Shown here one piece after another: positions 11,648 through 57,992 of a stretch of 64,000 bases of DNA. The notes under the pieces were generated by a model that did not search any database, had not been told where the DNA came from, and saw nothing but the letters and a program-made list of their open reading frames with translations. This DNA comes from Sphagnum magellanicum (taxonomy: Eukaryota; Streptophyta; Sphagnopsida; Sphagnales; Sphagnaceae). Both the position numbers and the translations under genes were made by a program. The stretch lies in the NCBI GenBank assembly GCA_021904315.1, contig CM038914.1, forward strand, positions 620,001 to 684,000, written 5' to 3'. Within the stretch, counting starts at the first letter, position 1, and each line of letters starts with the position of its first letter.

Positions 11648-13502
11648 TAAACACGGGGTGTGGCATACTGGGCCCTTTGCCATTTTCATTAAAAAGTATC
11701 TGAAGGCACAAGAAGAATTATGGAACTCAACCATGCAAAAATATAATCTTCAAAAATTCCTCTAAAAGAAACCAAAATCCTCCAAGATATTACAACTCTA
11801 ACTAATCTCAAGTTTCAACACAAGCCAAAATATCATCTTTTAATAATTCTCATATAAGTATAGACCTATTATTTACCTAGGTGAAAATCCCTTCAGCTGC
11901 TATACTCTGGAATGAATCTAAACACAATATCCTTGCCTACCAAGGCAAGGCCAAAAGGACCAGGATAGCTCTGCAGCAATCAGTGAGTGAGCCTGAGTAT
12001 TACTCTTGCAGAATTCCCAGACCAACAAAAACAAAATATCATGTGGGTTCAAATCCAGTTACAAAGATTGACCATTGATCCCATTGCAACGGTGCTCTGT
12101 CCTCAAAAATGGCTTTGAAGGCCAGGTGGTTGTTTCTTTGGTCAAGTCTATGTTCCAGCCATGTCCAAGCTTCTCCACGGCCGAATCCACAAAAGAAATG
12201 TTAATCATCAATTTCTTGTATAATAAGAAAAGAAAAAGATGACCCAATGAATAACTTTTTAAAATTCTCTAATTACATATTCAAATGCAGATTCATATAA
12301 AATATATGGCATTGATTGTTGATCATTTATCAGGATGCTCAATATATCTAATATCAATATGTATTTGAATAAGGTAACACTCCCTAGTTATGTATCCTTG
12401 GGTACTTATTCTGTTTTATATTAATTAGTTTGGGGATGCCTCGCAAGTTGAACTTTTTTTTTTTTTTTTGGCAATGAGCCAACTTGATTGGCCTATTGCA
12501 AAAACATGTAGAAGATTCTATGGAAAGATGGAGTGTCTCCTCCTTTGGCCCACCTATATAGGTGAGAAGGGGAGGACTTTGGGCAAAACATATGGGATTA
12601 AAGCAAGGTGCTATTGGGAACACCTTTAGGGAACACATTGGGAAACTGATGGAAACTTGAATGGAACATGTTGGGGACAAAAGAAAAATGAAAAAAATCC
12701 TCTCCCCCCGCCCCCGCCCCCCAAAACTTAAAAGAAAAAAAATCAAGGCACTTTGTGTGCATGCTGAGCCTTCCCATTGGCTGCATGAAATTTCTATTTC
12801 CAAAAACTGTTGGTCACCATTTTTGGCCTGGGCTAATACCCCCATTAAACTGGGGGTACTTATTTATTCATACTAGAATATAAATATCACATTGATAGGC
12901 AATCCACCCACACCCCATAGGTTTAGGGTCTACTAGTGTCTAGACTTTACCAAATCCAAAATAATTTGCAAGTTATTTTTTATCCCCATCTACAAACATG
13001 AAATCATAAACAATGTAAAAGCGAGGATCGATTAAATGTCACCACCAAATGGGCCAATTATTGTGATCATCAAACCAAAGTCAATCACTTTACCTTATTA
13101 GCACTTTTAAAAAAGCATTTTATCCTGAGCATATTAACAGCTTGAAGCTCAATTTCACACTAATTTAAAGCATGAACTTTATTGTTGGCCTTTCCTGCCT
13201 ACCAAGGCAAGGATATTGTGTTTAGATTCTCTATAGAGTATTGTAGCTTAAGGGATTTTAGCCCCTAGGTAAAGGTCTATTTTTATATGAGGATTTTTGA
13301 AAGATGGTATTTTGGCTAGTGTTGAAACTTGAAACTAGTTTCAGAGTAATAATATCTTGAAGGATTTTGGTTTCTTTCAGAGGATTCTTTGAAGATTATA
13401 CTTTTGCATGGTGAAATATTTGAGTTTCCATAATTCTTCTTTTGCCTTAAGATACCTTTAAAAGTGAATGGCAAGGCCTCACTGTGACACACCCCTTGTT
13501 TA
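11648..13502. mobile_element. Element bounded by ~300-bp inverted repeats
   Basis: The arm at 11,648-11,950 is matched in reverse complement by 13,194-13,502. The outer ends TAAACACGGGGTGTG and its counterpart CACACCCCTTGTTTA pair, and inner matches include ACCTAGGTGAAAATCCCTT and TACCAAGGCAAGG. Both arms stop at a small palindrome (CCTTGCC...GGCAAGG) on the inner side. No transposase is present and I could not find a clear target duplication, so the class (Mutator-like, foldback or other) is open. A reversed copy of repeat X (12,420-12,870) sits in the middle. Confidence 0.55.
12420..12870 (-). repeat. Repeat X, copy in reverse orientation
   Basis: Repeat X is a ~400-450-bp unit. In plus orientation its landmarks are: TAGCCCAGGCCAAAAA; TTTCATGCAGCCAATGGGAAG; a G-rich run; a string of TTCCCAATGTGTTCCC words; CACCTATATAGGTGGGCCAAA; and a GGGCCAATCAA end. 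All are present here reversed. Other copies lie at 14,470-14,850 and in a cluster at 44,100-46,190. It has no coding capacity. Two of the three locations are inside Helitrons, so it may be Helitron internal sequence or a small element that inserts with them. Confidence 0.7.
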
Positions 13503-14469: not shown

Positions 14470-14850
14470 TTGCTATTAAGTGCTCACCCAAGGCTTTGCT
14501 GGGAGCTAGAAGGATTTTTTTTTTCATTTTTTCTCGTTCCCAATGTGTTCCCTTTAAGTTCTCAATGGGTTCCCAATATGTTGCCCAAGTTCCCAATGTA
14601 TTCCCCAACATATTCTCCATAGCATCTCAATTTATATATATAATGCTTTGGCAAATTGTTGTTCTCCTTTCACCCATATGGGTGGGCCAAAGGGGAGGAA
14701 CTCAATACTTCAAAATAGAACCTTCTATCTTGAGGAGCCTCCATAGTTTCATTTTTTTTGTGTGATGGGCCAATCAAATTGATTCATTGTGAAAAAAAAA
14801 ACAACAAAATTGGGAGGCACCTCATCTAATTAATAAAAGAGGTGAATAGC
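14470..14850 (+). repeat. Repeat X, forward copy
   Basis: It carries the TTCCCAATGTGTTCCC words, CACCCATATGGGTGGGCCAAA (a variant of the CACCTATATAGGTG palindrome) and the GGGCCAATCAAATTG end that mark repeat X. It lies inside Helitron Z. Confidence 0.65.
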
Positions 14851-21636: not shown

Positions 21637-22310
21637 CACTAGTAGAAATCTGTGATTTTACAACCAACGAATTTGCGACTAGTTGCGACTATTTGACATT
21701 TACAACTACTATTGGTATACCTACAACTACTGTTTGCATTTGAAGCCGCTTGCAACTATTCTACGACTAACTTACGACTAATAGATTATTTCATCTTTTC
21801 ATTTGGATAGCTTTCATTACAATTTCCATCCAAGTATGTAGTATATACGGTTTCATCCAATGGTTTCCTGATCATGTGGGTAAGGAGTGGCCATGTTTTT
21901 TCTGATTAACTAATGGATTGTTGCCACATGGCATGGTTTCTAGTATTTGGGAAACCAAATAGTGATCTTGAATTTTCTAAATCAAATGGCCAAGAAATGG
22001 CCACGTCCTTGTGTTTGCTAATCGAAATGTGCCACGTGTCTCAATATGAGCATTTTGAGCTGTTGAATTGCCATGTATGACATGGTCCCACTATTAGGGT
22101 TAGGGTTAGGGTTAGGGTCCAACTATTAGGGTTAGGGCTAGGGTCCCACTATTAGGGTTAGGGTTAAGGTCCCACTATTAGGGTTAGGGTCCCACTATTA
22201 GGGTTACGATCCCATTATTAGGGTTAGGGTTAGGGTTAGGGCTAGGGTCCCACTATTAGGGTTAGGGTTAGGGTTTAGGGTTTAGGGTTCATCTGCTTTG
22301 TTCAATGTGC
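21637..22310 (+). repeat. Left long inverted terminal region of the CACTA element
   Basis: About 670 bases here pair, as imperfect reverse complement, with 28,605-29,277. Shared landmarks are the CACTA tip, CGGTTTCATCC(A/G)ATGG, AATTTTCTAAATCAAATGGCCA and ATGAGCATTTTGA, followed by the telomere-like array. Inverted ends this long are unusual for CACTA elements, whose strict inverted tips are normally a few tens of bases. Confidence 0.85.
22095..22290 (+). repeat. Telomere-like TTAGGG array (left)
   Basis: TTAGGG repeats are grouped in blocks separated by GTCCCACTATTA. A few units read TTTAGGG (about 22,270-22,288), the usual plant telomere repeat, and some have changed to GCTAGGG. A reversed array occupies the same relative place near the other end (28,612-28,842). 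Confidence 0.9.
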
Positions 22311-28604: not shown

Positions 28605-29277
28605 AATGAACCCTAAACCCTAACCCTAACCCTAATAGTGGGACCCTAGCCCTAACCCTAACCCTAATAATGGGACCCTAACCGTAACCCTAATAGTGGG
28701 ACCCTAACCTTAGCCCTAATAGTGGGGCCCTAACCCTAACCCTAACCTTAATAATGGGACCCTAACCCTAACCGTAACCCTAAGAGTGGGACCCTAACCC
28801 TAACCCTAACCCTAATATTGGGACCCTAACCCTAATATTGGGACCATGTGACACATGGTGATTCAACAGTTCAAAATGCTCATATTGAGACACGTGGCAC
28901 ATTTGGATTAGCCAAACAGAAAAGACGTGGCCATTTCTTGGCCATTTGATTTAGAAAATTCAAGATCACAATTTGGTTTCCCAAATACTAAAAATCATGC
29001 CATGTGGCAACAACCCATTAGTTAATCGGAAAAAACATGGCCACTCCTTACCCACACGATTAGGATACCATCGGATGAAACCGTATATACTACGTATGTA
29101 CTACATTTAGGCTCCATCCACCATTTGGTGACGTCATGCTGATGTAACTGGTTTTTGCGACTATTTGTCACTTGCGACTTGTCTTAGGCGACTAACAACA
29201 AAATAGTTGTAAAATGTCGCCTGCGACTAAAAACTAGTCGTAAACACCAGTCGTAAATCCTAGGTTTTCTACTAGTG
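28605..29277 (-). repeat. Right long inverted terminal region of the CACTA element
   Basis: Reverse complement of 21,637-22,310, with the same order of landmarks and the CACTAGTAGAAA tip at 29,277. The two arms differ by scattered substitutions, so they have been diverging for some time. Confidence 0.85.
28612..28842 (-). repeat. Telomere-like CCCTAA array (right)
   Basis: CCCTAA repeats are grouped in blocks separated by TAGTGGGAC or AATATTGGGAC. It mirrors the array at 22,095-22,290 in sequence, spacing and distance from the element end. Confidence 0.9.
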
Positions 29278-30040: not shown

Positions 30041-31071
30041 TGACGCACTCCCAATTCCTCAAAGGGCTCAAATGTGAGCCCAAGTAGGAAAACAGCGGAA
30101 GAAGGAGGAGTCGGAGCACGCTCCCTAGCTCACAACATTTTGAGGGGTAGAGGGGCGTGTTGGAGCTCCGGGATGGGACTAGGAAGAGTTGACAAGCTTC
30201 ACTCACTCACACGGGCCTGCACACAACCCAGACAAAGTGGTTAGTGGATAGTTAGAGCACCCTTGGTGTTGGGACTAGCCACGGGCAACACGGACACACA
30301 AGACTCACCACGGCCCGGACTTGGGGGAAGCCACCACCTTCCCCCTTATAGTATACTCTGTAGCTCTCCACGGAGGTTACATCCAAATGGCTATTTTTCC
30401 CGGGACTCCCGAGTGGGAGTCCCAAAATCGCGCCAAATGGGACTCCCACGACTTTGGAGCCTGATAACTTTGCGAGCAGACCTCAGATCGCGATGTGGTC
30501 TAAAGCAAAGTTGTAGTTCTTGTCGAGAGCTTTCCAACGATATGTGACATGCCCCTTGCAGCTAAGTAAATCGGGTCGATTCCCAACTTTTTGTTGTCGG
30601 GAGTTAAACTGGCAATTCGACTCCCGGCCCTTCTTTTGGCCATAACTTGTGTTTCAGATGTTCAAATGATCAATGCGAGCCCATTTTAGACATCTACGCT
30701 TCAAGAGAGTTTCAATGATATAAAGAATGCCACAAGACATTGAGATTTGATTCCTGCAATCGCTCTCTGAAGTTTTGGGAGTCCACCAGGACTCCGTCTC
30801 CCAAAGTGGGAGTTACCTTGGGAGTGTGAGGGTTCACTCCCTCATACTCCCTCACACTTTCTAACACTCCCGGGAGTATGTGATGTGACTCCTCGGCTTC
30901 CTCTTGGCCCGCACCCTTGCAATGCCTTTGCCTTGACTCCCGGGCTTCCTTCCTCTTTGCCTTGACTCCCGGGCTTCCTTCCTCTTTGCTTTGACTCCCG
31001 AGCTTCCTCTTGGCTCGCACCCTTGCAAGCCCCTTTGCCTTGGTCGCAAGCCCAAGGCTAGGGTTGCGACA
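30041..31071 (-). mobile_element. Solo LTR, family L1, inserted in the copia pol
   Basis: On the minus strand it starts TGTCGCAACCCTAG and ends GGGAGTGCGTCA. It is flanked by the 5-bp duplication TAACC (30,036-30,040 and 31,072-31,076, plus-strand reading). At 1,031 bp it is the longest of the four family copies. Part of the extra length is a local tandem repeat of ~36 bases (TTGCCTTGACTCCCGGGCTT, about 30,925-31,010). It interrupts the copia frame between a YDGYV-like segment (integrase side) and MAKVVQDVEPICFEDA (reverse transcriptase side). Confidence 0.9.
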
Positions 31072-41900: not shown

Positions 41901-43961
41901 ATGCATTCAATGTTCAAAATAATATTCTTGGTTAATGAAATGAAGAATTGTGGTCATGAACAAGGATAAACTAAAATTCCTTTTCAATCCTAAAGTTATA
42001 CTATTAAATCAAACAAAGGAAAGGATAATAAAACTTTTGAACAATTGTAAATGTAAAAAAAAGTTAATTTTTTTTTATAAACCAAGCAATTAAGAAATTT
42101 AAAGGAAACTACTACAAACTTCAAAGCAACAATCCTTGTTAAAAAAAAAAGAACATAAATACACATTAAAAATTAAAATTGGAACTTGCAACATTTTTCT
42201 ATGAATTATTGAAGAGAAAAATCATTTTTTCAAAATGTTCCAAATGTAAATTATAACCATTTTTAGCCTTGTATTTAAATTATTTTTTAAAAAAAAATTC
42301 TAAATTTCTCATGCATAAGAATATTAATCATAAAAAGTAATGATATAAAAGAATAACCAACAATAAAAGGCAAACCCATCCTTAGGTGGTACCATTAGGA
42401 ACATCACACTGTGATTTTCTTAGACCCATTGAACTTTGGAAATCATAGAAAACACTTAAATAAATATTTTCATAATTCTTTTTGGTTTAGTAGATTTATT
42501 AGGTTCCATAGATTTAGAAATTCAATAATATCAATAATAATTTATATTTGGGTCAAAGCAAGATAAAATATACCAAAAAATTAAACGTCTCCACTTTAAT
42601 CTTACACCTCTCGTTACCATAAAGTAACATCAAATTAAGTAAAGTATGTGTCAAGTAGCATTAGTTGATTCTATTATTAGTTGATTCTATTAAACTTATA
42701 AAAATCTAATTCTAAGAAAATTAAAAATAAATAAATTTAAAAAATAGATAAAAAAACACACTTGAAACTGACTAAAAAATATGTGTTCAAACCTATTGAG
42801 AAGTTTCAAAATTTTCATGTGAAGACACATGAATTTATTTGAGAAGCCCCTCTTGTGGTCACATGTAGGCCTTATAGTATTTTCACAATATGGACTATTT
42901 GAGGTTGTATACAACAGTTTTAATGAAGAACATGCATTATATAGTGGAAGACTCAATAAAATTGAATTTAAACATGTCAATATGCACATAATATAAAACC
43001 CACTTTTTAAAAAAAAAACTTTCAACATCATGGCCATTTTTCCCTTCTCACTAAAAATCTGTGAGAATAGACAAAAGGCCATGAAATTTCGAAACCTCCA
43101 TGTGAAGACAAGTGTTAATGGGCCTATGGTTTTTGCAATGGACCATGAGGGTTTTGTGATGAGGAGCTTGCTAGAAACAAACAAGAAATAAATAAGTTGG
43201 TGAGAAAACACTTAAAAACTCAAAGGTCGAATCCTCACACCTTGTTCCTTTATTTTTGAAGCGCAAAGAATGTTTGTAACCCTCCACTTAGGGATTCCAA
43301 TTTCACAAAAATTGTTCAATTCGAAAATGAGATGTGAAAAAAATGAGATATTCGATGTAATGGGGCTCAATGTTTTGGTGATGGATGAATTAAAACATAT
43401 TAAAATTTTGAGTTTGAAATCTTTGATTGTTGCATCTTTGGCTCTCAAATCCGAAGAAGCTTTGTAAAGCCCTAGTTGGCCATTCATTAGGTTTCAAATA
43501 CCTCAAGACGGATTCAAAACGAGGAAGATATTAGGCTGGAACTATAGAGGGTCTAAGCTTTTTTTATAAAAAATTAAAACAAACTATCACTCATCCTGTG
43601 TTTTCTAAGTTGCTCTTTTACTTCTACCATTGAAAGAACATTAGTAGCCCTCCAAATTGTGCATCCACTAACACAAAAATTGCTCAATTTTGGTTAAGAA
43701 AGAGGAAAATATTATGCAGTGAGAGGTGAGACGTGCATGCTCAGTGTGGGCGGTTCACCTAATACTTTTCCTAGTAATACATGTCATAATAAAGATATCC
43801 ATAAAGTCACCCTGTCTTCACCTTATATTTCACCCCCTAACCCCTCTTTTGGTGGTATTTGCAAAGTTAGGAAATCTCAGTATGACATGCTGAAAACGAG
43901 CGCGAAATGTTGAATCTCAGCATTTAATGCACAAGGTTCGTGATGAATTATAGTAGCTGTA
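39000..43961. other. AT-rich intergenic DNA with one tandem duplication, no gene
   Basis: About 5 kb of stop-rich, AT-rich sequence. It includes a ~200-base tandem duplication (about 39,935-40,110 and 40,115-40,326; shared GACAATTCTCTTTGGATCTT and GGAAAAGGTTTT...TAGTACCTTCC), a (TA)n tract at 40,680-40,697 and ACACAC runs near 39,250 and 39,330. No recognised protein on either strand. Confidence 0.5.
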
Positions 43962-45657
43962 CTAGTCTATAAACCCATTTTGCAAGCAAAATGATCAAAT
44001 AAGCAAAAGACTAAAGTGTTATGTATCAAAGTCCATTTTGTCCACTTCTACCAATCAATTATTTTTAAAAATCAAATGTGCCCCAACATTAAATAAGTGG
44101 GGTGTTCTTTGCAAGGGGCGTTAGCCCATGCCAAAAATGGTGATGAAGTCTTTTGAAAAGAGAAATTTCATGCAGCCAATGGGAAGGCCCAAACATGCAC
44201 TCAACGCGCCTTGTTTTTTTTCCTTTTATGTTTTGGGGTGTTGGGGGGGGGGGAGGGGTGAGGAAAGATTTTTTTTCATTTTTCCCAACTTCCCAATGTG
44301 TTCACACTATGTTCCTTTCAAGTTCCCGATGGGTTCCCAATATTTTCCCCAACATTTTCTCCATACCTTTTCACTTTTATATGCCTTGGAAAATGGTGTC
44401 CTCCTTTCACCTATATAGGTGGGCCAAAGGGAGGAATTGTACAGTTCAAAATAGAGCCTTTTGTTTTGGGGAGTCTCCATTATTTCTTTTTTTTGGAATG
44501 ATGGGCCAATCAAATTGGCACGTTACCCAAAAAAACTTGGGAGGCACCTCATTTAATTAATAGGAGAAATGATTATTTCCCCAAATTTATTTCCCTGTCA
44601 TTAGCCTAGGCCAAAAAGGTAATTAATAGTTTTGGAAATAGAAATTGCATGCAACCAATGGGAAGGTGCAGTATCCATCCAGGCGCCCCAACTCTTTAAT
44701 TTGGGTTTTGGGGGCAAGGGGGAGGGGGGAGAAGTTTTTTTTCCATGAGTTGCTGATGTGTTCCTACCATGTTCCCAAGTTGTTCCCCGAGTTTTCAACG
44801 TGTTCCTACCATGTTCCCAAGTTGTTCCCCAAGTTCTCAATGTGTTCCCCAAGGGTGTTCCCAATAACACCTAATATCAAACCCATATGTTTTGTTCAAA
44901 ATCCTCCCTTTCTCACCTATATAGGTGAGGTGTTCATTGCGAGGGGTAATAGCCCAGGCAAAAAATTATAATGGGGGTATTAGTCAAGGTTGAAAATGGT
45001 GCCAAAAAGTTTTGGGAATAGAAGTTTCATGCAGCCAATGGGAAGGCTCAGCCTGCACTCAAGGTGTCTTGTTTTTTTCTTTTAAGTTGGGGGGGGGTGT
45101 GTGGGGAAAGAAGAATATTTTTTTCATTTTTCCTTTGTTCCAACAGGTTCCCAATGTGTTCCCCATGGGTGTTCCCAATCACACCTTGCTTTAATCCCAT
45201 ATGTTTTGCTCAAAGTCCTCCCCTTCTCACATATATCGGTGGGCCAAAGGGGGAGGCACTCCATCTGTCCATAGAATCTTCAATTTTTGTGAGCCTTCAT
45301 AGTTTCAATTTTTTTTGCTGGGGCCAATCAAATTCAATAAAAAAAAGTTGGACTTGTGAGGGGTAAAGGTTAGGCCAAAAACAGTGATAAATTTTTTTGG
45401 GAGGAGAAATTTCATGTAGCTAATGGGAAGGCCCAAGCACACATTGAATGTGCCCTTGCATTTTTTCCTTTTAAGTTTGGGGGGCGAGGGATTTAGAAGA
45501 GGATATTTTTCAATTTTCCCTGGTTTCCACTATGTTGACCATCCCACCATCCGTTCACTTTGGCTGGGGCCTTCAAGGGAAAAGGTGGGGGGGAGGCTCC
45601 AGCCAATCATGAATTACCACATCAAAACATTGACACCCATTTTTTTATAGTAGTAGA
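43962..45657 (-). mobile_element. Helitron unit D, non-autonomous, 1.7 kb
   Basis: 5' end TCTACTACTATAAAAAAATG at 45,657; 3' palindrome and CTAG at 43,962. The interior consists mainly of consecutive repeat X copies (about 44,100-44,560, 44,590-44,935, 44,940-45,360 and a part copy to ~45,520). The last ~110 bases at the 5' end resemble the 5' end of unit B (GGGGCC(T/C)TCAAGGGAAA...). No protein. Confidence 0.8.
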
Positions 45658-46190
45658 CTAGTCTGTAAACCCATTTTGCAAGCAAAATGATCAAATAAGC
45701 AAAAGACTAAAGTGTTATGTATCAAAGTCCATTTTGTCCATTTTTACCCATCAATTATTTGTAAAATTCAAATGTGCCCAACACTGAATAAGGGGGGTGT
45801 TCTTTGCATGGGGGCAGCTGGGGGGGGGCGGTCGAGGAGGATTCATTTTCCTTTCAACCAATAGGAGGGCCCAAGGTGCCTTGCTTTTATTCCTTTCAAA
45901 TTATAGGGGGACAGGGAAGAATTTTTTTTCAGTTTTCCCTGTTTCCTAATGTGTTCCCATGATGTTCCCTTTAAGTTTTTAATGAGTTCTCACAATGTTC
46001 CCCAAGTTCACAATGTGTTCCCTAACATGTTCTCCATATAAGCACCTCACTTTTAGCCGATGTGCTTTCGCATTTTCACCTATATAGGTGGGCCCAAGGG
46101 GAGGAACTATATAACCTTTTATTTTGAGGAGCCTCCATAGCTTCATTTTTTTGGTAGCAATGGGCCAATCAAATTGGTTTTGGCCTAGAA
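44100..46190 (+). repeat. Cluster of repeat X copies
   Basis: Five copies, some partial, start near 44,100, 44,590, 44,940, 45,360 and 45,790. They share the GCAGCCAATGGGAAG, TTCCCAATGTGTTCCC and CACCTATATAGGTGGGCCAAAGG landmarks. Four lie in unit D and one in unit C. Local tandem growth inside the Helitron is the simplest explanation. Confidence 0.8.
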
Positions 46191-46290
46191 TTTTGGCATA
46201 GTTTGTTGATGAGAGCGAACATTCCGGAGGATTCACCAATCCCGAATTATTGAATCAAGCACGTGCGAACACCATTTTTTTATAGTAGTT
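45658..46290 (-). mobile_element. Helitron unit C, non-autonomous, ~0.63 kb
   Basis: 3' CTAG (45,658-45,661) with its palindrome. The 5' end near 46,290 reads ACTACTATAAAAAAATGG without the leading TCT and is fused to the shortened 3' end of unit B: about 11 bases (the CTAG and TCT part) are missing at this junction compared with the others. Contains one repeat X copy. Confidence 0.7.
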
Positions 46291-46639
46291 AAACCCATTT
46301 TGCTTGCAAAATGATCAGGAGAAAAGATTGAAAGGACCTTGAGAACTATTTAGTTAATAATTTTAAGTTGGGACAGTTTTTGTTCGATGGGATAGTAAGA
46401 ATTTAGAAAACATTATATTTTCAACAGCCACACGTCATGAACATAGCTTGCGTTGTAGTCATTTTTGCATCCAATGCAGGGAATTTCAACCCATGATTTG
46501 GATGTGGGAATTTCGACCCATCGAGATAGAAAAGTAGGCAATAGATAGAGAAAAAAGATCATTGCAACAATTCTATATAAACAACATTGGTCGTCGTCCT
46601 GCCATTTGGGCAGAAAACAAAAACATCATTCACATGCGT

Positions 46640-49600
46640 AGCTCGTGACAAAGCTACATACAATTGGCCATGGGTGAAGACAGGTTCAGGCAAGAAAATG
46701 CCAATGGTTTTCATGGTTTGACCTTGTGCCTAGTTAATTGTCATAGCGAATGCCAATTACAAGGGGAATTGGCGCCTTTGTAGGGTGAATGGCCACTTCA
46801 AACAATTCGTTGTTGTGGTGATGCACGGTATGTTGACAACATTCCCCGCATGCGCGCCACTAATGATCTGTGCAACAATCAATGTCCGTGCCAGGCGCGA
46901 AATGATTAGACGGGTCCCATTACAAAGTCCTGAGGTTGCATCAAGATTTCTTAGTAACATAACAGGGACACCAACTTTGAAGGCTAGGCGATGTGGTGGC
47001 ATACCTGCCAGAGTAATGGTGTTGAAAAATTCTGTGCCAATCGCCATAGCCTGGTCATCCCCCGTTTCCACCAAGTTTGCTGACAAAAATATGTGCTCTT
47101 ACCCAGGCACAACCTTGACAATCTGAGTGTTGAAAGAGTTCATGACTGTATTTTTTGTTGTCAAAATAACTCGACCGTCCATGTATCCTTGGTTTGCGTA
47201 ATTGATGGCCAGGGCTGGGAAAACAGTGTGGATGAAGGTCTTTAAAGATGGCGCTTGATGGATGTTTGGGTATAAAGCAATCTCGACTCCAATTGAGGGC
47301 TTCGCGTTGGCTTCCGGTGGAAAATGATTAATGATGGAAGACACTTGGCCATTGCCGACTCTCAGAAGGTACTTTGCATATGGCTTGGAGAGGGGATTGG
47401 CGCGCAATCTCATGTTTTCTGTGAGAGTCAAGATGCGCACTTGACGCCACAAAACCGAACGCGAAAGGGCCGCAAAACGATTGCTGCCCGAAGGCCTCTG
47501 GACACCACTGGCGGACATTGTCGGAAATCACCCCCAAAGACAACCGCTTTACTGCCAAAGGGCGAATTTGGGCACTGCATGATGTCGCGTAAAGTCCGGT
47601 CTACCGCCTCGGCACAATGTCGATGTTGTGCTGGAGCTTCATCCCAAACGATCAACTTTGCTTCCCGAAATAACTCAGCAGAATCGCTTTGCATAGGTAT
47701 CGAACACATTGAATCCCTACCAAGGGCAATTGGGATCTTGAAAACCAAATGTGCAGTTCGTCCACCTTCCAATAGGAGAGCTGCTATGCCAGAAGAGGCA
47801 ACCGCAATGGCGACATGTCCGTCTCATCGAACCAATGCCAATAACACTTTATATACAAAGGTTTTGCCTGACCTACCTGGACCGTCTAGGAAAAATACTA
47901 CGCCTTCGCCTTGGGCTATTCCGTTGAACACTGTAGTGACAACTATTTCCTGACTAATGTTGAGCTGCGAGAGATTTTGGTTGATGTAGCCATGGCGTAC
48001 GTCTCTATCATAGTCAAGTTCTGCAGCCAATTGAGGATTAACACGCAGCATTTTTACAGGCGGCAAAGCGAACGACATTTTCAAAAAGTCATGCAAGCCT
48101 TTGTTCGTCAATGCTAATTTGGCCTCGAGGAGTAGTAGGGTATCGTTGTAGGCATCGTCGGCAATGCCTCCATTCGTGATGCGTCGATGCCGCATATCGT
48201 GTGACATATCGTCTCGATATCTTTCCCATAACACTTCCGAATTCAAAGGAGAGCATAATAGTAAAAGAGTCACAAAGAGATTCTTTAGCCTCTTTGCGTC
48301 TTGATCAATACATACTTCTCGCATGCACGTGTCCCATTCTGCGTCATCCTGTAGTAATCCCAATGCTTTGCAAACAACTTTAAACATCGGATGCTCTATG
48401 TCGTCAACAGTTCGGAGATGTTCGAAAGAGGTCACGCCCGGTACGACAATAAGTAGGAGGCGGAGGAAGAAGCATTCACCAGCAGCGGGATGTACAAAAT
48501 ACATTCGCCCAACAACTTTTTCTCCTCGTTATCGAGCTGACCAAACTTTTCCTTGAATTTTCCAAACATGATCAGCAGGGAAGTCTGCATACACCACATT
48601 TCGCCCATCTGCATTTTGAGCATTATACGCAAAGTAGGCGGTCAAGGTGGTTTTTTGGTGGGCAGCACGCTCCGCCACAGTGGCCAAATCTTCATTTTCA
48701 TTAAAAATGACGTTGTGCTGTCCTCGCAAATGAATAACTAATCGAGTGACTAGCGGCCATTCCATATGTTTTTTGAATGAAAGTAAGGAATCGACCCCTT
48801 CAGTAACACTCAAATATCTGGCGTCAATGTATTGCTGGATTTCGTTTATTGGATCGGTAATCACTGCTACAACACGATCAGGACCTTTGTAAACATATTT
48901 TAAAAGGTATTTGACACTCCGAATACCGGCGGACACCTCGACGTTAATATGTGCATTAAACATCTTGGTAAGGTAAGGGTTGTGGGGCACCACCCATCAG
49001 TTGTCGTATGCAAAGCCATCTGGAGTCTTTTGAAACATTCGACCATCGTTTCGCTGACTGTAGACAGGGTAACCGTCTTCGCGTTGTGTTGTCTCTTCGG
49101 AGAAAGCTTGCAGATATCGTTTCTTGCATAAACCGTTGGCCATGCAAGGTGCGTTGGGGTATTCTTGGCCACACGGTCTATGCAACAAACATTTTGTGAC
49201 CGTTTCAAAAAGAGGTGTGTTCTCTAGAAGAGGAAACTCTGCCGACACTAAGCGATCTATGTCTTCGGTTGTGGAAACTTTCTGCTCTGGAGGAAATATA
49301 AGGAGCAGATGGATGTGAGGTAGGCCTCGTTTTTAGTATTCCCTTGTCCAGATGTTCCTAATAACTTTGGCGAACCATCCAACTTTTGCCACTCCTTTAA
49401 GAAGGGCTTTCACCTTCATTTGAAATATGCGGGCAACCAAATCTGGACGGTCAGAAGTTGTTTGGTTAGGCTTGAGCTTCGTGATTATTTCTTACCAATT
49501 CGGGTTGCAAGTGAATGTGAGGAAGACATCTGGAATTCCTTTGCTTCACACAATAGCCATCGCATCTTGATACACTTACATCATGAAACGTGGAGAACTG

Positions 49601-51500
49601 CGAAATGAAGCTGGGAGAACAATTCGTTGACCCACTTGCGCAAGATGTAATTGGAAATCATGTTCGACCATATCTACCAGCCCTTGGTAGAGTTTCGCAC
49701 GAAGTTGAGCTTGGTTTAGCACCAAAAATGTCGCAACCCCACTTTGGCCAAGTGTGGGGGTGAAGCCCAACACTTGGAAAAGTTGGAGGTTGGGAGTCCT
49801 TCGGGACTCCCGAATGTTTAGAGCTCGACAACAAGGGGCAAAACACCTCGCATCAGGGTGTTCTTAGTGTCGTTGAAAAGGTCTTGAAACGTAGATATCG
49901 AAAATGCCCTCGCATTGGCAATTCGGACATCTGCAGCTCAAGTTATGGGCAAAAGAAGGGCCGGGAGTCAAATTGGCAGTTTGACTCCCGACCACTAAAA
50001 GTCGGGAATCAACCTCTTCCCGACGTCCGATTTGAATGTGCGACATGGCGTTGAAAAGATCTCGACGAGGGCTACAACTTTGGTTCAGACCTCGTCACGA
50101 TCCAACTCTACAGTCGGGAGTTATGGCGGTTCAAAGTTCCGGGAGTCCCGCTGGGACAATTTCGGGACTCCATTTCGGGAGTCCCGGGAATTTGTGCCAT
50201 TCGGATGTAGCCTCCGCGACCAGCCGCAAAGAATACTATATGGGGGAAGGTGGTGGCTTCCCCCGAGTCTGGGCCGTGGTGAGTCTTGTGTGTCCAAGTG
50301 CCCGTGGTAAGTCCCAACACCCAAGGGTGTCCCGAATGCTAAACTAACCCGATTTGGTTGGTTTTTGGATGCAGATTCACACGAGCTAAGCTAGTCCCTC
50401 TTCCTAGTCTAATCCCGGGGCTCCCAACTCGACCCTCTACCCCTTTCTAGAGTTGGAAGCCAGGAGCGTGCTACCAAGTCTCAACTTTCCGCAACTTGAT
50501 TTTGTGAAACCCTTAAGTGGGTTTCACCCCGTGACTTGGGAGCGCGTTAAAAAAGTTAAGAATGTTTTGCTCTGTTTTAGCAGCAACGTCGACGATATAC
50601 TGTTGAAAAAGGCAACCATCGAGATGTAGAGCGGAGAGTTCGACACTAAAGTGCACTTTTTGTGTGTAATAAGCTGCCATTGAGACCCTTGTGCATGCTC
50701 GGTCCTGATTGTTCTGTAACCGCATATTTTTAGACCACCCGTCCTCCCCAACAAGGAAAAGCAGCAGGTATTATAAAGGATAGTAAGAAGGTGCTAGCTC
50801 GTTCATTCGCTGTAAACCACCTCCATATCGCCGTTGTACAATGACATCACGATTTCCAACCTCTCCCGGCTCGCCAGGAATTATCATTGCAACCTCCTTT
50901 GCCGTAGGGGCGTTATAACGGTGGACATCTCCATTTCCTAGGGTACGGCTAGCTATAATGCAAATGTGGACCTCCTTTGTAGGGTTAGTGGCGAGACGCT
51001 CGGTTGCACGAACGAAGACGTTTACATAAGGATTTACGCACCTGAGGATCGTGTGAAGTGTCATCAAATGCGCCGAGCTTAGATTGGGGTTTTGCATCTG
51101 TCGATTCAGACCTTCATTTACCGCATCATGTACATAGGCCTAAAGAAAGCGTGGCAATTACCCTTCTGCAGGTTCCATACCACCGATCAAATGGTAGAAT
51201 CCTCCTTGCATTTTGTAGGTATGCATTCCTGGTCCAAGTTCGAAGCCCACACTCTGGACCCTCGTGGAGGTAAATGCAAATGCAACATTGTATAAACGAA
51301 GATGTTTACGCAATTCGACATTTTATCGATCTTGTAACATGGCCATGTACTCTGGCAGGGTACAAATAAGAGGCAAAAAAATTTTCCCTGAAACACAGCA
51401 TTTACTATAGTGTGGTCTTCGAAGAAAGCCCCCCGTGCACTCTTCGATCTAGAAGCGAGAGCCACAATGGTTACATTGCTCATTCAAGCGTCCGAACACT
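46640..51500 (-). pseudogene. Helitron Rep/helicase gene, nearly readable
   Basis: The single protein of plant Helitrons joins a rolling-circle Rep nuclease to a PIF1-type DNA helicase. In minus-strand order: an N-terminal part (51.5-50.8 kb; NPYVNVFVRATERLA), LFQQYIVDVAAKTEQNILNF (~50.6 kb), then beyond the solo LTR NQAQLRAKLYQGL and VGQRIVLPASFRSSPR (~49.7-49.6 kb), the HUH motif GLPHIH (49,309-49,326), the two-tyrosine region KYLLKYVYKGPDR (~48.9 kb), Walker A GPGRSGKT (~47,870), Walker B LIVWDEAP (~47.65 kb), FGGDFRQ, TENMRLR and VPVMLLRNLDATSGLCNGTR (~46.9 kb). From 49.7 to 47.5 kb one frame is kept with a few stops (one just before the HUH motif). A shift occurs near 47.5 kb. It is inactive but not old. 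Confidence 0.92.
49729..50549 (+). mobile_element. Solo LTR, family L1, inside the Helitron Rep domain
   Basis: Starts TGTCGCAACCCCAC and ends GGGAGCGCGTTA (the usual final CA has become TA). Flanks AAAAA at 49,724-49,728 and 50,550-50,554 form the 5-bp duplication. It splits the Rep coding frame between QNILNF and NQAQLRAKL. Its length is 821 bp. It is very similar to the copy at 52,266-53,083. Confidence 0.9.
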
Positions 51501-52007
51501 TGTCGGTCTACTTGCGGGTCGACCAAGGGGTACTGCAAATCTCGTAGGGCTATGTGGCGTCCAGCCTGAAGTTGATCCTTTCCGCACGCGACACGACGTT
51601 GTTCAACTCATCGCGCAACATCTATCATTAGTTGGGTTTGATGGCCCTGCTCTGTTTCAAAAGCATGCGCTCTCGTGTGTTGTTCCGTGTTTTCCAATAA
51701 TCGATGAGCAATATTAGCCATACACTGTGCTTCCTCATGTTGGGCCCCATTAGACGCAGCCCTTTTGAGAGCTACTGTAGCACGACGAGGTCTTTGACGT
51801 TCTCGAGCAACTACTTGCCTTTCTTCATCATTTGCATATTTGCGCGATGCTCCAGGGCCTCGTCTACGATTCTTTCAGTCGGAACCAAAATGGAGTCAGG
51901 CTTTAAAAAAACAATAACATAACTTCATATTTAACTACCATTATGACAGGCGCAAGTCTAACCTCGGGGTCAACATATCCACAAGCAATGTATTTGTATT
52001 CTCTATA

Positions 52008-52252
52008 TCATATGAGCCACTAACACACCAAAAACACCACACATGGAAGAGCTAGAAGGAGTGAGGAAAAGGTACCTCTTCCATGACAGTATTTGTAGCG
52101 CTTGTGCTCTTGTTGATTCACATTGTTCAACTCTACAACCATGAATGACATGATGACTCCCATAGCTCCTCCAAAAATTGATGCCACAATTGGGTCAACT
52201 TCACTGCAACCCCCCACCCAGCAATCTCAAGTTTAGGAGCACATACTCCCAA
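52008..52252 (-). repeat. Captured ORANGE segment, copy 1 of a tandem duplication
   Basis: About 245 bases here are repeated at 53,325-53,569 (shared ACCACACATGGAAGAGC and CCCCCCACCCAGCAATCTCAAG). The solo LTR at 52,266 separates the copies. The duplicated part includes a complete exon with both intron borders. Confidence 0.85.
52076..52203 (-). pseudogene. OR: ORANGE (OR) gene exon captured by the Helitron, copy 1
   Basis: ORANGE is the plastid DnaJ-like chaperone that stabilises phytoene synthase and drives carotenoid build-up. The minus-strand frame reads EVDPIVASIFGGAMGVI, then MVVELNNVNQQEHKR and YKYCHGRG: the second membrane segment and the start of the cysteine-rich domain. The first Cys of the CxxCxGxG motif is Tyr here (RYKYCHG). 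The exon is bordered by an acceptor (GGGTTGCAG) and a donor (GTACC), so genomic DNA, not cDNA, was captured. It lies in the same orientation as the Rep/helicase gene. Nothing else of OR is recognisable in the window, so it cannot make the protein. Confidence 0.88.
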
Positions 52253-52265
52253 CCAAGATGCTCAA

Positions 52266-53083
52266 TGTCGCACCCCTACTTTGGCCAAGTGTGGGGGTGA
52301 AGCCCAACATTTGGGAAAGTTGGGGATTTGGAGTCCTCCGGGACTCCCGAATGTTCAGAACTCGACAGCAAGGGGCAAACACCTCGCATTGAGGTGTTCT
52401 TGGTGTCATTGGAAAGGTCTTGAAACGTAGATATCGAAAATGCCCTCGCATTGGCAATTCGGGCATCTACAGCCCAAGTTATGGGCAAAAGAAGGGCCGG
52501 GAGTCAAATTGGCAGTTTGACTCCCGACCACTAAAAGTCGGGAATCGACCTCTTCCCGACATCCGATTTGAGCGTGTGACATGGAGTTGGAAAGATCTCG
52601 ACGAGGGCTACAACTTTGGTTCAGACCTCGTTGCGATCCAACTCTGCAGTCGGGAGTTATGACGGTTCAAAGTCCCGCGAGTCTCGCCGGGACAATTTCG
52701 GGACTCCATTTCGGGAGTCCCGGGAATTTATGCCATTTGGATGTAGCCTCGGCGGAGAGGCGCAGAGAATACTATAGGGAGTATGGTGGTGGCATACTCC
52801 CGAGCCAAGGATGTGGTGAGTCCAAGTGAGTCCAGGTCCCCGTGGCTTGTCCCAACACCAAAAGAGTGCAAATGGATTCTAACCAACTCATGTTGGTTTG
52901 TGATGCAGGTTCGTGTGATCTAAAAGCTTGATCTCTTCCTAGTCTAATCCCGGGGCTCCCAACTCGACCCTCTACCCCTTTCTAGAGTTGGAAGCCGGGA
53001 GCGTGCTACCAAGTTCAACTTTCCGCAACTTGACTTTGTGAAACCCTCAAGTGGGTTTCACCCCGTGACTTGGGAGCGCGTCA
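52266..53083 (+). mobile_element. Solo LTR, family L1, between the ORANGE copies
   Basis: Starts TGTCGCACCCCTAC and ends GGGAGCGCGTCA, with perfect 5-bp duplication CTCAA (52,261-52,265 and 53,084-53,088). Length 818 bp. It is close in sequence to the copy at 49,729-50,549 over its whole length, with differences mainly at single bases. Confidence 0.92.
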
Positions 53084-53395
53084 CTCAACCACACCCACGT
53101 TCAAGAGGACATGATCCTCAAGTGACCCAGATCTAGCACATCGAGCACATGCCAAGTACCCTACATGGTTTCCAATTGCCAAATAGAATCATGAATTGGT
53201 GTTAAGTCTCCAACAAACAGAATGAATATTTTGATTATCAAATAGAATATGTATCTGTATTATTTATGTCATTTGAGTATCAGGCAGCCCTTTCCTAGTC
53301 AAACAAAACCAATTTAGTTTTAAAGAATCATATGAAGCATTAACCCACCAAAAACACCACACATGGAAGAGCCAAAAGGAATGAAGAAAAAGTAC

Positions 53396-53523
53396 TTATG
53401 CCATGACAGTATTTGTAACGCTTGTGTTCTTATTGTTTCACATTGTTCAACTCTACAACCATGAGTGACGTGATGACTCCCACAGCTCCTCTAAAAAATG
53501 ATGCCACAATTGGGTCAACTTCA
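53396..53523 (-). pseudogene. OR: ORANGE (OR) gene exon captured by the Helitron, copy 2
   Basis: A second copy of the exon at 52,076-52,203, with both splice borders. It reads VGVITSLMVVELNNVK with a stop soon after, and RYKYCHG, so it carries the same Tyr for Cys and its own further damage (ATCATTTTTTAGAGG alters the GG region). The shared Tyr shows the duplication happened after capture or that the donor gene already had it. Confidence 0.85.
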
Positions 53524-54392
53524 CTACAACCCCCCACCCAGCAATCTCAAGTTTAGGAGCACATACAACCTCCTAAGTCAAGACTTCACTGCTAGATAAC
53601 CATCAAAACGACTCCTTGCTGGTCCTACTTTGTTGTTTTCTTCATGGAAATGAAAGGTTTGGAGGATAAACCTCAAAATGGTCCAAAATCAAAAAAATGT
53701 TCTTATTGGGCCAAGTGGGCAAATGTGTCATTCATTGGAAGTCGCACAGTACCCCCTGCATACGGCCCACATTATCTTTTCCCGTAAGAATCACTAACTA
53801 ATTCAAGCAAAAAATTTGCAAAAATCTCCACTCAATTACCCCTGTGTCTACATACATACTTTCCTACCATGACCACTTGAAAAACAATAGAGGAAAGAAC
53901 TATGTCTAGAGTCACATTTGTCCAAGCAACTTGAGGTTTTGATAAGGTTATAAAAAGCATGGGTGCGGTTGAATGGACCCCGCACCATCACCGCAGTTCA
54001 ATCTAAGAGTAGAAGAAGAGTTCATAGAAGCAAAAACAAATCTTATATTGAAGGTGGTCCACCCACCCTCCCTCCATCCCACGTTCTGTGTGCCCTTGTG
54101 ACATACATAGAGTGGTTCACCACCAGACTAAAAAACCATGCTGCTGTTACAGATGCAGATATGTAAAAAGGATAGGGGAAGGAATCAATCAAGTGGAACT
54201 TGACTCAACTGGGGATAAAAAGAAAAAAAATCACCAAAGAAACTCTTCAATGTTTTATTCAGAGTTGTTGCTGTTGCTTACAAATTGCTGGGTGGGTAAG
54301 TATATCAAAACCAATCAATCCATGCTACTACTTCAATTCTAAACACCCCAGAGCTTCAATCATTTCTGTTTTATTACTCCCAACTTTTTCAT

Positions 54393-54737
54393 CTTCATCT
54401 ATCTTGACCTTGGAAAATCTACAGGCCATTCATTTGGGAAAATAAAAGAAAAGAAAAAAATGTCAAAACGGTCTTCTACTACAGCAGACAAACAAATAAC
54501 ATGTGACCCCCTGAATTTCTTTTGTACAACGGAAGCCTTGTGACTGACAGAGAGGGCTGCAACTGCTTCATCTATCTTGACCTTGGAAAATCTACAGGCC
54601 ATTCATTCGGGAAAAGAAAAGAAAAAATGTCAAAAGGGTCTTCTACTACAACAGACAAACAAATAACAGGTGACCCCTTGAATTTCTTTTGTACAGCAGA
54701 AGCCCTGTGACTTACAGAGAGGGCTGTAACCGCTGGC
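54393..54737. repeat. Tandem duplication, ~173-bp unit, two copies
   Basis: Units begin TTCATCTATCTTGACCTTGG at about 54,393 and 54,566 and end at a CAGAGAGGGCTG(C/T)AAC segment. They lie in the 5' part of Helitron unit B. No protein recognised. Confidence 0.8.
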
Positions 54738-55046
54738 ATAATAATAAGCTCCACATATAAACCCTTTTTTTCCCTTCAACTATGCAAAGTAATTTCTTTT
54801 GTAATTGATCCAAAATATCAGTTTTAGGCTTTTTCCCAAAGACTCCCAACAGCTTTTATAATAACACTGAGATACATTGGCATGTAGTAAAATGACCCCC
54901 CATCTTCCCATTTAAAAACGTTGACCGAAAACCATGCTTGCGAGGACTGAGAGAAGCGTGGTAAGGGCAAGCCCTGCATAAGAAGGCACTGCCAAAGTTG
55001 AGGCCACACCTAGAGACGGCGATGGTGCCGGCAGCTGAACTATTTA

Positions 55047-55350
55047 TGTCTGACGTTGCCAAGGCTTGTTCAAGAAGCGCCAAAAAGCGTACTGCGTGGA
55101 GGAGCTACGACGCACAAAAATAGAGCAGCCGACGTAATTCTGAACCAAAACTTAGTTCTTCTTCTTCTGGGGCCCTCAATGGAAAGGAGGCGGTGTTGGT
55201 ATGTCTGACGCTACCAAGGCTTGCTCAAGAATCGCCAAAAAGCGTACTGCATGGAGGAGTTGTGATGCACAAAAACAGAGCGGCCGACGCGATTCTGAAC
55301 CAAAACTCGGTTCTTCTTCTTTTGGGGCCCTCAAGGGAAAGGGGGGGGGT
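55047..55350. repeat. Tandem duplication, 154-bp unit, two copies
   Basis: Units begin TGTCTGACG at 55,047 and 55,201 and share GCCAAAAAGCGTACTGC and TTCTGAACCAAAAC, ending in GGGGCCCTCAA(T/G)GGAAAG. The second copy leads into the Helitron unit B 5' end. On the minus strand the unit reads in part like a gene piece (FLAILEQALVASD) but I cannot name it. Confidence 0.8.
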
Positions 55351-55429
55351 GTTGGGGGGGGGGGGGGCTCAAACCAGTCACGAATTATCGCATCAAGCAC
55401 GTGGACACCCATTTCTTTATAGTAGTAGA

Positions 55430-56016
55430 CTAGTTGGTAAACCCATTTTGCAAGCAAAATGATCAGGGGAAAAGTTTTATTAGGAGGTAGAAAGAAAACA
55501 AACGAAAGAAAAAAGGAAAATCTCCCGGATAAAGGAAAACCTTAAACCCGGACACACCCAAGAGGATACCCATTACACTGAGTGATACCCTGACACTGAG
55601 GGATACCCATTACACTGAGTGATACCCATTACGGACACACCCAAGAGGATACCCATTACACTTAGTGACACCCTGACACTAAGTGATACCCATTACACTG
55701 AGTGATACCGATACCCTGAGTGACTTTTCCTCTCACCGAAAGTTCTCACAACCCACCCAAGAGTTTACCCATTGCACTGAGGGACCCTGTTTTCCTCACA
55801 AACAAACCAGACACAGAGTGATACCCATCACACTGAGTGATTTTTCCTGACACTGAATGATACCCATCACACTGAGTGATTTTTCCTGACACTGAGTGAT
55901 ACCCATCACACTGAGTGATTTTTCCTGACACTGAGTGATACCCATGGGACTGAGTTCCAGCCAATAGGATATCGGACGGACGGACGGACACACACCGATT
56001 CTTTTATATAAGTAGA
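55430..56016 (-). mobile_element. Helitron unit A, non-autonomous, 587 bp
   Basis: 5' end TCTACTTATATAAAAGAATC at 56,016 after an A; 3' CTAG at 55,430-55,433 with palindrome at 55,444-55,461. Its 5' end is related to, but clearly different from, those of units B-D, so it is another subfamily with the same 3' end. The interior is almost entirely short tandem repeats. Confidence 0.8.
55550..55950. repeat. Short tandem repeats with CACTGAGTGATACCCAT core
   Basis: Two blocks: an irregular one (about 55,550-55,720) and a regular ~39-base one (about 55,805-55,950) alternating CACTGAGTGATACCCATCA and CACTGAGTGATTTTTCCTGA. Internal to Helitron unit A. Open frames across it are products of the repeat. 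Confidence 0.88.
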
Positions 56017-57992
56017 TAGGTAGGAGCAGTGAAAATCTATGTAGCAGCAATGGAGGCGCTCAGGAAAAAAGAAAGACAAGGTGAAACTCAGGAAACCATA
56101 AAAATTGATGGTTTTCTGAGTTTCAGCCCCCCTTAATGCTAATGTACTTTTTTGCAGGTTTTTTTTGAATCTCAACCCATGTATATGACCAAACTCGCGG
56201 TACTCACCCTGTCTTTTCCTGACTTTACGGATATCTCTAATATATGAAAAATATTTATTGTATCTTGATCATTGTTGCCACACTTGCGACATCGATACCG
56301 TTCTGTGCACGTCCTTCACGTCTGCAGCCATGTCCGATAATACTTCGACAACCACAACTGCGCACGAGAAAGCTCTGAATCCTTAAATTTACAAGAAACT
56401 TGTTATCACTATAAACCGTAGGAGCTGCAATTACGAAAGACTTAGAACCACAGTCGTCACATGGAAATCAATCTCTCTCAAGATTCCCCCTTGGACAATA
56501 TGAAGCAGCGACCGTCACCAAATGTAAGGTTTCTGCTAGACAATCAAAGGATGAGTCAGCTGCAGAACCATGTGCAAATAGCGCTCCAAAATGGCTATAG
56601 ACAAAGCTGAAGGACTTCGCTGTTGAAGCCTCGAGAATCAAGCGCTTGAAGTAGATAGAGTATATGGATTATTCGTCCCTTAGTTTTTTTTTCTCTCTCT
56701 CTCTCTCTCTCCCTCCATTTTCTACGCATTGATATGGGGTTGAACACTAGATTTTACGCGAATAGACGTCGTGCTATGTAGACTTCTTCCTCAGAAAAGA
56801 GAAATACAACTGCAGATGGTCACGAAAATCAGTTATCAACAGTGTTCGGATATTTGGATTTTGCGTGAAAGCATGACAATGTAGAGAGCTGAACTTGGTT
56901 TGAAGAAGTAGCTCAGAGCTTTTGGAGGTGAGTTATACACTATTTGATTGATAATATGGTGGATGCCATGGTTGGCATGATGATCCGAGGAGGAATCTGA
57001 AGGATTTTCTTTCAGCAAAATCCAAGTTGAAATCCAAGACTCTGAATGCTACATCTGTGACTAGAAACTCTTTGAAATCCTGGTGATTGATGCTCGTAGC
57101 CAGTGAAGATTTCAGTAAGAATTGCCGAATGCCATAATCGTAACCTAATTGCTTCCTAAGTCTTTTGGTCTTTCATGAATTCTAACTGTCTCTCTTTAGT
57201 AGCTTGCATGTTTCAGTGTTGTACAGCAAGAGTCACAGTCCATATCGATATTCACTATAGCCAGAGCGGCCATTGCTCATTTCCTGCACTAACAATGCCT
57301 TCAGACTGACGACGACAAGCATATCAATCTGGCAGCAAATTCATGCGTACTTGTGAGTTCACTAAATCTTGCCTTCCTGAACTCTGAGGGCATTCTTACT
57401 GTTTTCACTGCTGCCTGTTTAGGTTATGGATTTCAGATGTTACAACTTGGCAGATGGGCATGTTCGGACCAATGATCTGACTAAGAGCTTCTTGGATTGG
57501 TGGTGCAGATTCATAAGCTCCTGGAATTTGTGTTTGAAGATTTGAATGTAGAAATGGGTTTGCAATTCTCCAGTAGTTTGCTTTGCAAGGGCTGTGATTG
57601 CAGTGCAGTGATTACAGAAAATATTCTCTCAAGTATATAGTCTTTCGATGTTCTGAGATGCAACTTCTCAAATTCATGCTTCAAAATTCTACAGTTTGTT
57701 CTCTCTCTTTTCCCCCAGAAATGGATACACTACAATCTTCACTTTCACCTTAGATGTGTAAGGTATGTCATGTCATCTGCTTTGAATCACTTCTGAATCA
57801 CAAAAGTTGGGGATAACAAATACAGATAAATCAGGATCCAGTAGACACTTAAATGTGATTCCCTTCCTTTTTGCACAGAGTTACAGCTTTGCTCTACCAC
57901 CCAAACAGCTCATTTGCTTCTATAGGTCCAAGATACATGAGAAAGAAATGGACTGATATGGGATTGATCAATATGTCAATGTATTTTCACTC
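56017..57992. other. Between the Helitron chain and the CAT gene; no gene recognised
   Basis: Probably includes the CAT 3' untranslated region near 57.9 kb. A (TC)n tract lies at 56,693-56,712. A short frame from ATG 56,461 (about 48 codons) has no known match. Confidence 0.35.

Follow-up and report, generated by a model that had tools for sequence, protein, structure and literature searches.

A chain of three Helitrons in Sphagnum magellanicum and a possible preference of these elements for landing sites resembling their own 5′ end

Results

Three Helitrons are joined nose to tail at one A/T site

A stretch of 64,000 nt from Sphagnum magellanicum (positions 620,001 to 684,000 of contig CM038914.1, assembly GCA_021904315.1; hereafter the window) contains three canonical Helitrons, A, BC and D, which follow one another without a gap inside a single repeat resembling a miniature inverted-repeat transposable element (MITE). 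The chain is probably a pile-up in which one A^T site was entered repeatedly and each newcomer most likely landed precisely at the front end of its predecessor. Across the same genome, our survey points to a preference of these elements for landing sites that look like their own front end. The genome searched was the assembly of the window itself (439 Mb, 31 contigs); individual loci and contigs are cited by their L and C numbers.

All elements of the chain are read on the minus strand, where the 5′ to 3′ order is one half of the repeat, A, BC, D and the other half of the repeat. Helitron A (55430–56016) is non-autonomous and 587 nt long, begins with TCTACTTATATAAAAG, ends with CCAACTAG and has a minisatellite as its interior. 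Helitron BC (45658–55429) was formerly autonomous and is a single element with an internal fossil terminator. Helitron D (43962–45657) is non-autonomous, 1696 nt long, and contains internally repeated modules. The original prediction had counted four Helitrons, with B and C as separate units; as described below, these are parts of one element and the supposed third junction is internal to it.

At both joins the CTAG of one element is followed directly by the TC of the next. On the minus strand CTAG/TCTACTACTATAAA is read at 55430/55429 (A to BC, 55429–55430) and at 45658/45657 (BC to D, 45657–45658), with zero bases in between. On this strand the chain is preceded by A (56017) and followed by T (43961). 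A, BC and D all have the canonical 5′ TC and 3′ CTAG termini, and an 18-nt palindrome stands 14 nt ahead of the 3′ end in A (55444–55461), in C, where it forms the 3′ palindrome of BC (45672–45689), and in D (43976–43993), which is within the 10–15 nt typical of Helitrons. It recurs at the corresponding place in B as a fossil within BC (46296–46313). The 5′ end TCTACTACTATAAA is common to B, C and D, with C lacking its first bases, and differs from the type found in A (TCTACTTATATAAAAG). Two subtypes of 3′ end can be told apart, one in A and the old B and the other in C and D. The mixed head-to-tail assembly at a single A/T site that the original prediction described, with two direct joins, a common palindrome and two types of 5′ end, is thereby borne out. 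Its description of the interiors as different applies to A, BC and D, but the 3′ part of D can be aligned to C at 69%. As neighbours differ in their interiors, and A also in its 5′ type, the chain does not have the make-up of a tandem amplification.

The exact junction pattern has six matches in 439 Mb, two of which come from the window, and none in the control; the two joins of the window are therefore not due to chance. A search of this kind had been proposed to reveal further copies of the chain. It did recover the pattern, but neither pair of window units was met at a second place among the 40 of 302 and 40 of 334 candidates scored, nor among the 5′ ends read.

BC carries broken remnants of both RepHel components, an HUH Rep and a PIF1-type helicase, and its proteins are not intact. 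The frame-broken remnants on the Rep side (49336–49728, minus strand) match the Pfam domain Helitron_like_N at 49336–49491 (2.8e-08, above the cut-off) and at 49579–49728 (1.7e-04, below the cut-off). The HUH-like motif PHIH was read by eye in the piece 49000–49332, which gave no Pfam hit. The helicase remnants span 46760–47823 on the minus strand (PIF1, 3.7e-42; Pif1_2B, 1.8e-22).

The target is a repeat found uninterrupted elsewhere

The two flanks of the chain are halves of one repeat with inverted ends, as judged by eye. The left half covers 43791–43961 and the right half 56017–56237 (plus strand), with outer boundaries drawn by eye. Six of the 13 loci compared carry the uninterrupted repeat, L018 exactly at the insertion point and L017, L021, L022, L024 and L025 with small differences. 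The L018 copy joins exactly where the chain is inserted, as expected if a Helitron enters between A and T and duplicates no target bases. An empty site, which the original prediction had asked for, is thus available as a copy of the repeat at another place, though not as an allele. The repeat may be a MITE. Its ends look inverted by eye, and homologous copies are present at many loci. On the minus strand the target in the window reads A^TACAGCTACTATAAT, similar to a Helitron 5′ end.

The same position in the repeat has been used more than once. C11 carries a second chain, of two BC-type units (BC/BC), at the identical position; outside the repeat, no homology was found between the flanks retrieved for it and those flanks of the window that were searched. 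The position is also occupied by two 5′ ends on C12 (L132, L133), which are separated by 72 kb and preceded by G. A pattern for the repeat side had 87 matches with up to 2 mismatches, against 10 for the reversed control, with only the window and C11 matching perfectly. A longer pattern joining the repeat to the Helitron end (CTAG) matched these two places alone (control 0). Many of the other matches to the repeat pattern read TACTTG/TACAACTACTATAAT, and we take them for uninterrupted copies of the repeat.

Two other readings of this locus were set aside. The 3′ flank of the chain (TACAGCTACTATAA) is not a decayed fifth Helitron, as it belongs to the repeat seen uninterrupted elsewhere. Common descent of the chains in the window and on C11, based on a shared T in TATAGACTAG, is unsupported, since apart from this T the ends are just as similar to many others.

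The right half of the repeat contains an inverted repeat with arms of ∼20 bp (56082–56125). Another recurrent target, apparently a palindrome split at its centre (GCTACTA^TAGTAGC), is agreed on by three 5′ flanks (L122, L129, L158) and one 3′ flank (L059).

A positioned motif is enriched in host flanks downstream of the insertion site

The motif analyses of the first family, with C/D-type 3′ ends, used 69 host flanks, with AT sites within the same flanks as the control. At positions +10 to +13 to the right of CTAG the frequency of A was 0.68–0.75, compared with ∼0.32 at control sites. ATAAA starting at +5 to +14 was present in 30 of 69 flanks and at 33 of 1029 control sites; including one further flank, which lacks ATAAA and does not start with T, gives 30 of 70. 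In 2000 A+T-matched draws the mean number of flanks with ATAAA was 4.1 and the maximum 13.

In the second family, with A-type ends, 20 of the 56 exact ends were retrieved, and 22 were read in all. Nineteen were spread along the list regardless of their flank, and one, on C5, was chosen for its join and is excluded from the counts. ATAAA was found in 9 of the 19, or in 7 of 15 if four flanks resembling a 5′ end are left aside, versus 3 of 155 control sites. With a matrix trained on the first family, 12 of the 15 scored above the 95th percentile of the control. The four set aside (L172, L180, L185, L188) sit 2–6 nt before what, by reading, appears to be a 5′ end of another family. Near misses of this kind fit target recognition better than joining within a concatemer.

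The elements' own 5′ ends fall at the 94th–98th percentile of control sites and at the 45th–70th percentile of real targets. We also considered that the host flanks might be decayed Helitron 5′ ends. This reading was rejected, as beyond +15 they are no more like the Helitron 5′ body than the control is (mean 6.25 for the 69 flanks, 6.30 for the control, 30–43 for positive controls).

Helitron ends frequently adjoin one another

The C/D-type 3′-end pattern had 231 matches in the genome with up to 2 mismatches (control 0). Flanks were read for 92 of the 100 matches listed, 80 as 400-bp stretches and 12 within larger loci; with other ends present in those loci the first count comprised 101 ends, and the extended count comprised 109. 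Sixteen of the 109 (14 in the first count) directly abut the 5′ end of another Helitron. The other classes in the first count were 2 ambiguous ends, 4 broken ends, 9 with a 55-nt extension, 3 near-duplicates and 1 second end at the repeat site, and the extended count adds five broken ends and one host flank. Past CTAG, 63 of the 69 host flanks start with T. Viewed from the other side, CTAG precedes 10 of the 72 5′ ends read, or 11 including C4:21207138 (CTAG/TACTACT, two bases lost), while A precedes 43 (TA in 28 of these), TG precedes 6 and other bases the remainder.

The joins span about 12 partner combinations, grouped by inspection rather than by computed clustering. Some downstream units recur: L017, L018 and L099; L024 and L098; L023 and L096; L019 and L020; and L022 with L025, which are segmental duplicates. 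The 22-nt A-type 3′ end has 56 exact copies genome-wide, a count that includes ends of the old B; the other A-type join, on C5, leads to a different unit than in the window. We considered the BC/x3 chain on C18 as offering a paired empty site, but its two loci are segmental duplicates of one another, and copies of x3 that lack BC are located elsewhere, which leaves no test of order.

Nine copies (L030, L042, L066, L075, L080, L082, L083, L090, L093) share an extension of 55–60 nt past CTAG and then diverge. At the far end of the extension are a second hairpin (CCTTGCC...GGCAAGG) and CCAACAAA, and it has the appearance of a 3′ transduction whose new terminator lacks CTRR. At three loci (L019, L020, L120/L121; on C2, C4 and C7) the same 45 nt lie upstream of a BC-type 5′ end. 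On C2 another Helitron 5′ end, after a host A, is found 587 bp upstream of the BC-type 5′ end, giving a composite with nested 5′ ends.

BC is one welded element

The boundary between B and C (46289–46290, minus strand) lacks the native CTAG terminator and the TCT start. Among loci from this genome, no base separates the end of B from the start of C in L015 (twice), L019 and L022, while in L027 two bases between them are unaligned. With up to 3 mismatches allowed, 16 copies of the fused join GGGTTTA/ACTACTATAAA are present in the genome, against none for the reversed-pattern control. At least 8 of these 16 welded copies have their own distinct host sequence past the 3′ end (L027, L029, L034, L044 with its duplicate L045, L049, L050, L056, L077), and BC has therefore been copied as one unit. 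An unfused B was found on C2 (L009, L118); it ends with GGGTTTACCAACTAG and is followed directly by TCTACTACTATAAAG of another element, the CTAG/TC join being intact. Compared with this join the weld is missing 11 bp, CTAG included. B and C together are thus one family member, and their imperfect join is a terminator deletion. It cannot be taken for a decayed fourth junction, since the weld is fixed and common to 16 copies.

A second weld, GGGTTTACAGAC/GTGCTTGATTCGG, in which a 3′ end is fused inside another 5′ end, was seen at six loci (L166, L167, L022 and L025 on C18; L017 and L024).

Other features of the window

BC contains two solo long terminal repeat (LTR)-like insertions, at 49729–50549, flanked by AAAAA, and at 52266–53083, flanked by CTCAA. 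They are 88% identical to each other and have 5-bp duplications. Within a Copia-like region, 30115–30795 is 73–75% similar to these elements. Similarity of 73–81% to the modules of D is found at 12511–12847 (minus strand) and 14517–14848 (plus strand), without matching Helitron ends. Interstitial TTAGGG/CCCTAA arrays lie at 22094–22289 and 28609–28835 in opposite orientation.

Discussion

Serial insertion accounts for the chain in a simple way. In a resident A[TC...CTAG]T the host A and the first T of the element form A^T, so that an insertion at this site gives A[TC...CTAG][TC...CTAG]T, and repeating the step gives the chain observed. The argument that separate insertions would not leave G/T junctions, which the original prediction had used, fails for this reason. 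The two clean joins can be explained without the rolling-circle read-through that it proposed. At the B–C weld, which it had treated as an ordinary junction, read-through of the lost terminator is well supported.

D would have entered the repeat first, at the 5′-end-like A^TACAGCTACTATAAT. Its initial T and the host A would have recreated A^T, now ahead of a genuine Helitron 5′ end, where BC could insert, and A would then have inserted at the 5′ boundary of BC. BC itself may go back to an older nose-to-tail join of B and C that lost its CTAG and was afterwards copied as a single unit. As for the enzyme, the HUH Rep might nick a target at A^T when 5′-end-like sequence lies downstream, which would make the resident's own nick site a target. 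Both this order of events and direct recognition of the target by Rep are what we infer from the copies at hand.

Among the alternatives, the chain could have been built elsewhere and have arrived as one 12-kb unit, if replication from the 5′ TC of A ran through the first two terminators, those of A and BC, to end at that of D. Read-through is real in this family, as seen in the 16 welded copies, in the 55-nt extension with its new hairpin in nine copies and in the identical 45 nt before the BC-type 5′ end on C2, C4 and C7. Recurrent combinations, namely D followed by unit x (L019, L020) or x2 (L017, L018, L099), are also compatible with co-mobilisation, and terminator bypass is documented for Helraiser (PMC4778049). 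However, the combinations of the window were not met at a second place in the searched portion, the internal CTAG is absent in BC and x3, unlike at both window joins, and the wide mix of partners is unlike the copying of one chain. We regard arrival as a single unit as unlikely.

Homologous recombination is more doubtful still. A Helitron circle with an exact CTAG/TC end joint, as documented for Helraiser (PMC5876387), could recombine into a resident through shared termini and would require no new target; the 3′ ends are near-identical across 90 nt. Yet A joins BC exactly despite differing from it in 5′ end and interior, the host flanks of single insertions carry a positioned target motif, and 4 of 19 A-type 3′ ends stop 2–6 nt short of an apparent 5′ end of another family, a gap that recombination would not leave. 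Insertion in the opposite direction, with each newcomer entering a non-canonical G^T just past the resident's 3′ terminus, is very improbable: such contexts exist (6 of 72 5′ ends follow TG) and this is one of the two orders listed for a maize pair by Du et al. (2008; PMC2267711), but a disfavoured dinucleotide would be required twice, when T opens 63 of 69 host flanks and A precedes 43 of 72 5′ ends.

Several observations weigh against successive insertion guided by 5′-end-like sequence. ATAAA is absent from 39 of the 69 host flanks in the range tested, and the peak of the motif mix lies at +8/+9, against +10 for ATAAA in the elements' own 5′ end. The palindromic target that is used repeatedly reaches only the 48th percentile of controls. 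By the motif the elements' own 5′ ends reach only the top 2–6% of AT sites, far too little in itself to explain why about one insertion in seven is found at a Helitron 5′ end. The rate of chain formation requires an extra factor, which may be active nicking of the residents' 5′ ends by the same Rep or copying of earlier joins. Downstream units do recur behind the same kind of 3′ end, and some joins may be copies of one event.

Taken together, we infer that insertion is directed to 5′-end-like sequence and is sometimes followed by welding. The head-to-tail joins of Helitrons have been cited as support for rolling-circle concatemers (PMC5876387); the joins described here are better explained by insertion beside a 5′ end, with the positioned downstream motif in two families as backing. 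This yields a simple and testable rule for the choice of targets, which would link donor and target nicking through the same nuclease. The intact join on C2, the 11-bp terminator deletion and the 16 welded copies form a fossil series for the origin of a composite Helitron.

A more general scheme, for which we see the case as evenly balanced, is that target choice is self-referential. The nick would be made at A^T where the next 15 nt resemble the element's own 5′ terminus, so that residents become prime landing pads and mixed chains grow, and loss of CTAG would weld neighbours into composites with exchanged termini. If this is true, chain formation and welding would be a main source of new autonomous and non-autonomous families in this lineage.

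Canonical Helitrons, nose-to-tail joins and composites are already known, as the passages concerned in PMC2267711, PMC3288121 and PMC5876387 make clear. In the maize pair of Du et al. (2008; PMC2267711) CTAG is likewise joined directly to the TC of a different element; the regenerated A^T is discussed in that account, which favours consecutive insertion. The Sphagnum chain differs in having three units, including a welded one that was once a RepHel element, and an identified target repeat; in addition, joins are common across the genome and the downstream motif has been measured. The tandem Helitrons of the bat Myotis (Pritham and Feschotte, as related in PMC2267711) share the exact head-to-tail joins but are described there as tandem repeats, whereas different elements are joined here. 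Maize Helitrons with multiple termini (PMC3288121) are composites whose internal termini bear a mutated CTAG, as in BC. Nested insertion is invoked in that description, while in Sphagnum the intact join of the unfused B and the weld with its 11-bp deletion coexist in one genome.

Helraiser, in the parts of PMC4778049 and PMC5876387 that bear on this, is alike in its A^T target, its preference for AT in the 3′ flank, terminator bypass and the CTAG/TC joint of its circles. Its preference for AT-rich sequence is strongest toward the 3′ flank of the transposon, and its authors remark that an AT-rich region lies close to where the 5′ terminal sequence is cleaved (PMC4778049). In Sphagnum, by comparison, an ATAAA is positioned ∼5–14 nt downstream, has been compared with the elements' own 5′ end and is tied to chains, a link not met in the Helraiser passages considered. 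A paper on wheat Helitrons (PMC13286980) presents insertion logos. The claim that targets resemble the element's own 5′ end was not found in the open-licence literature searched. New here are the 16 direct 3′–5′ abutments among 109 ends and the positioned ATAAA motif in two families.

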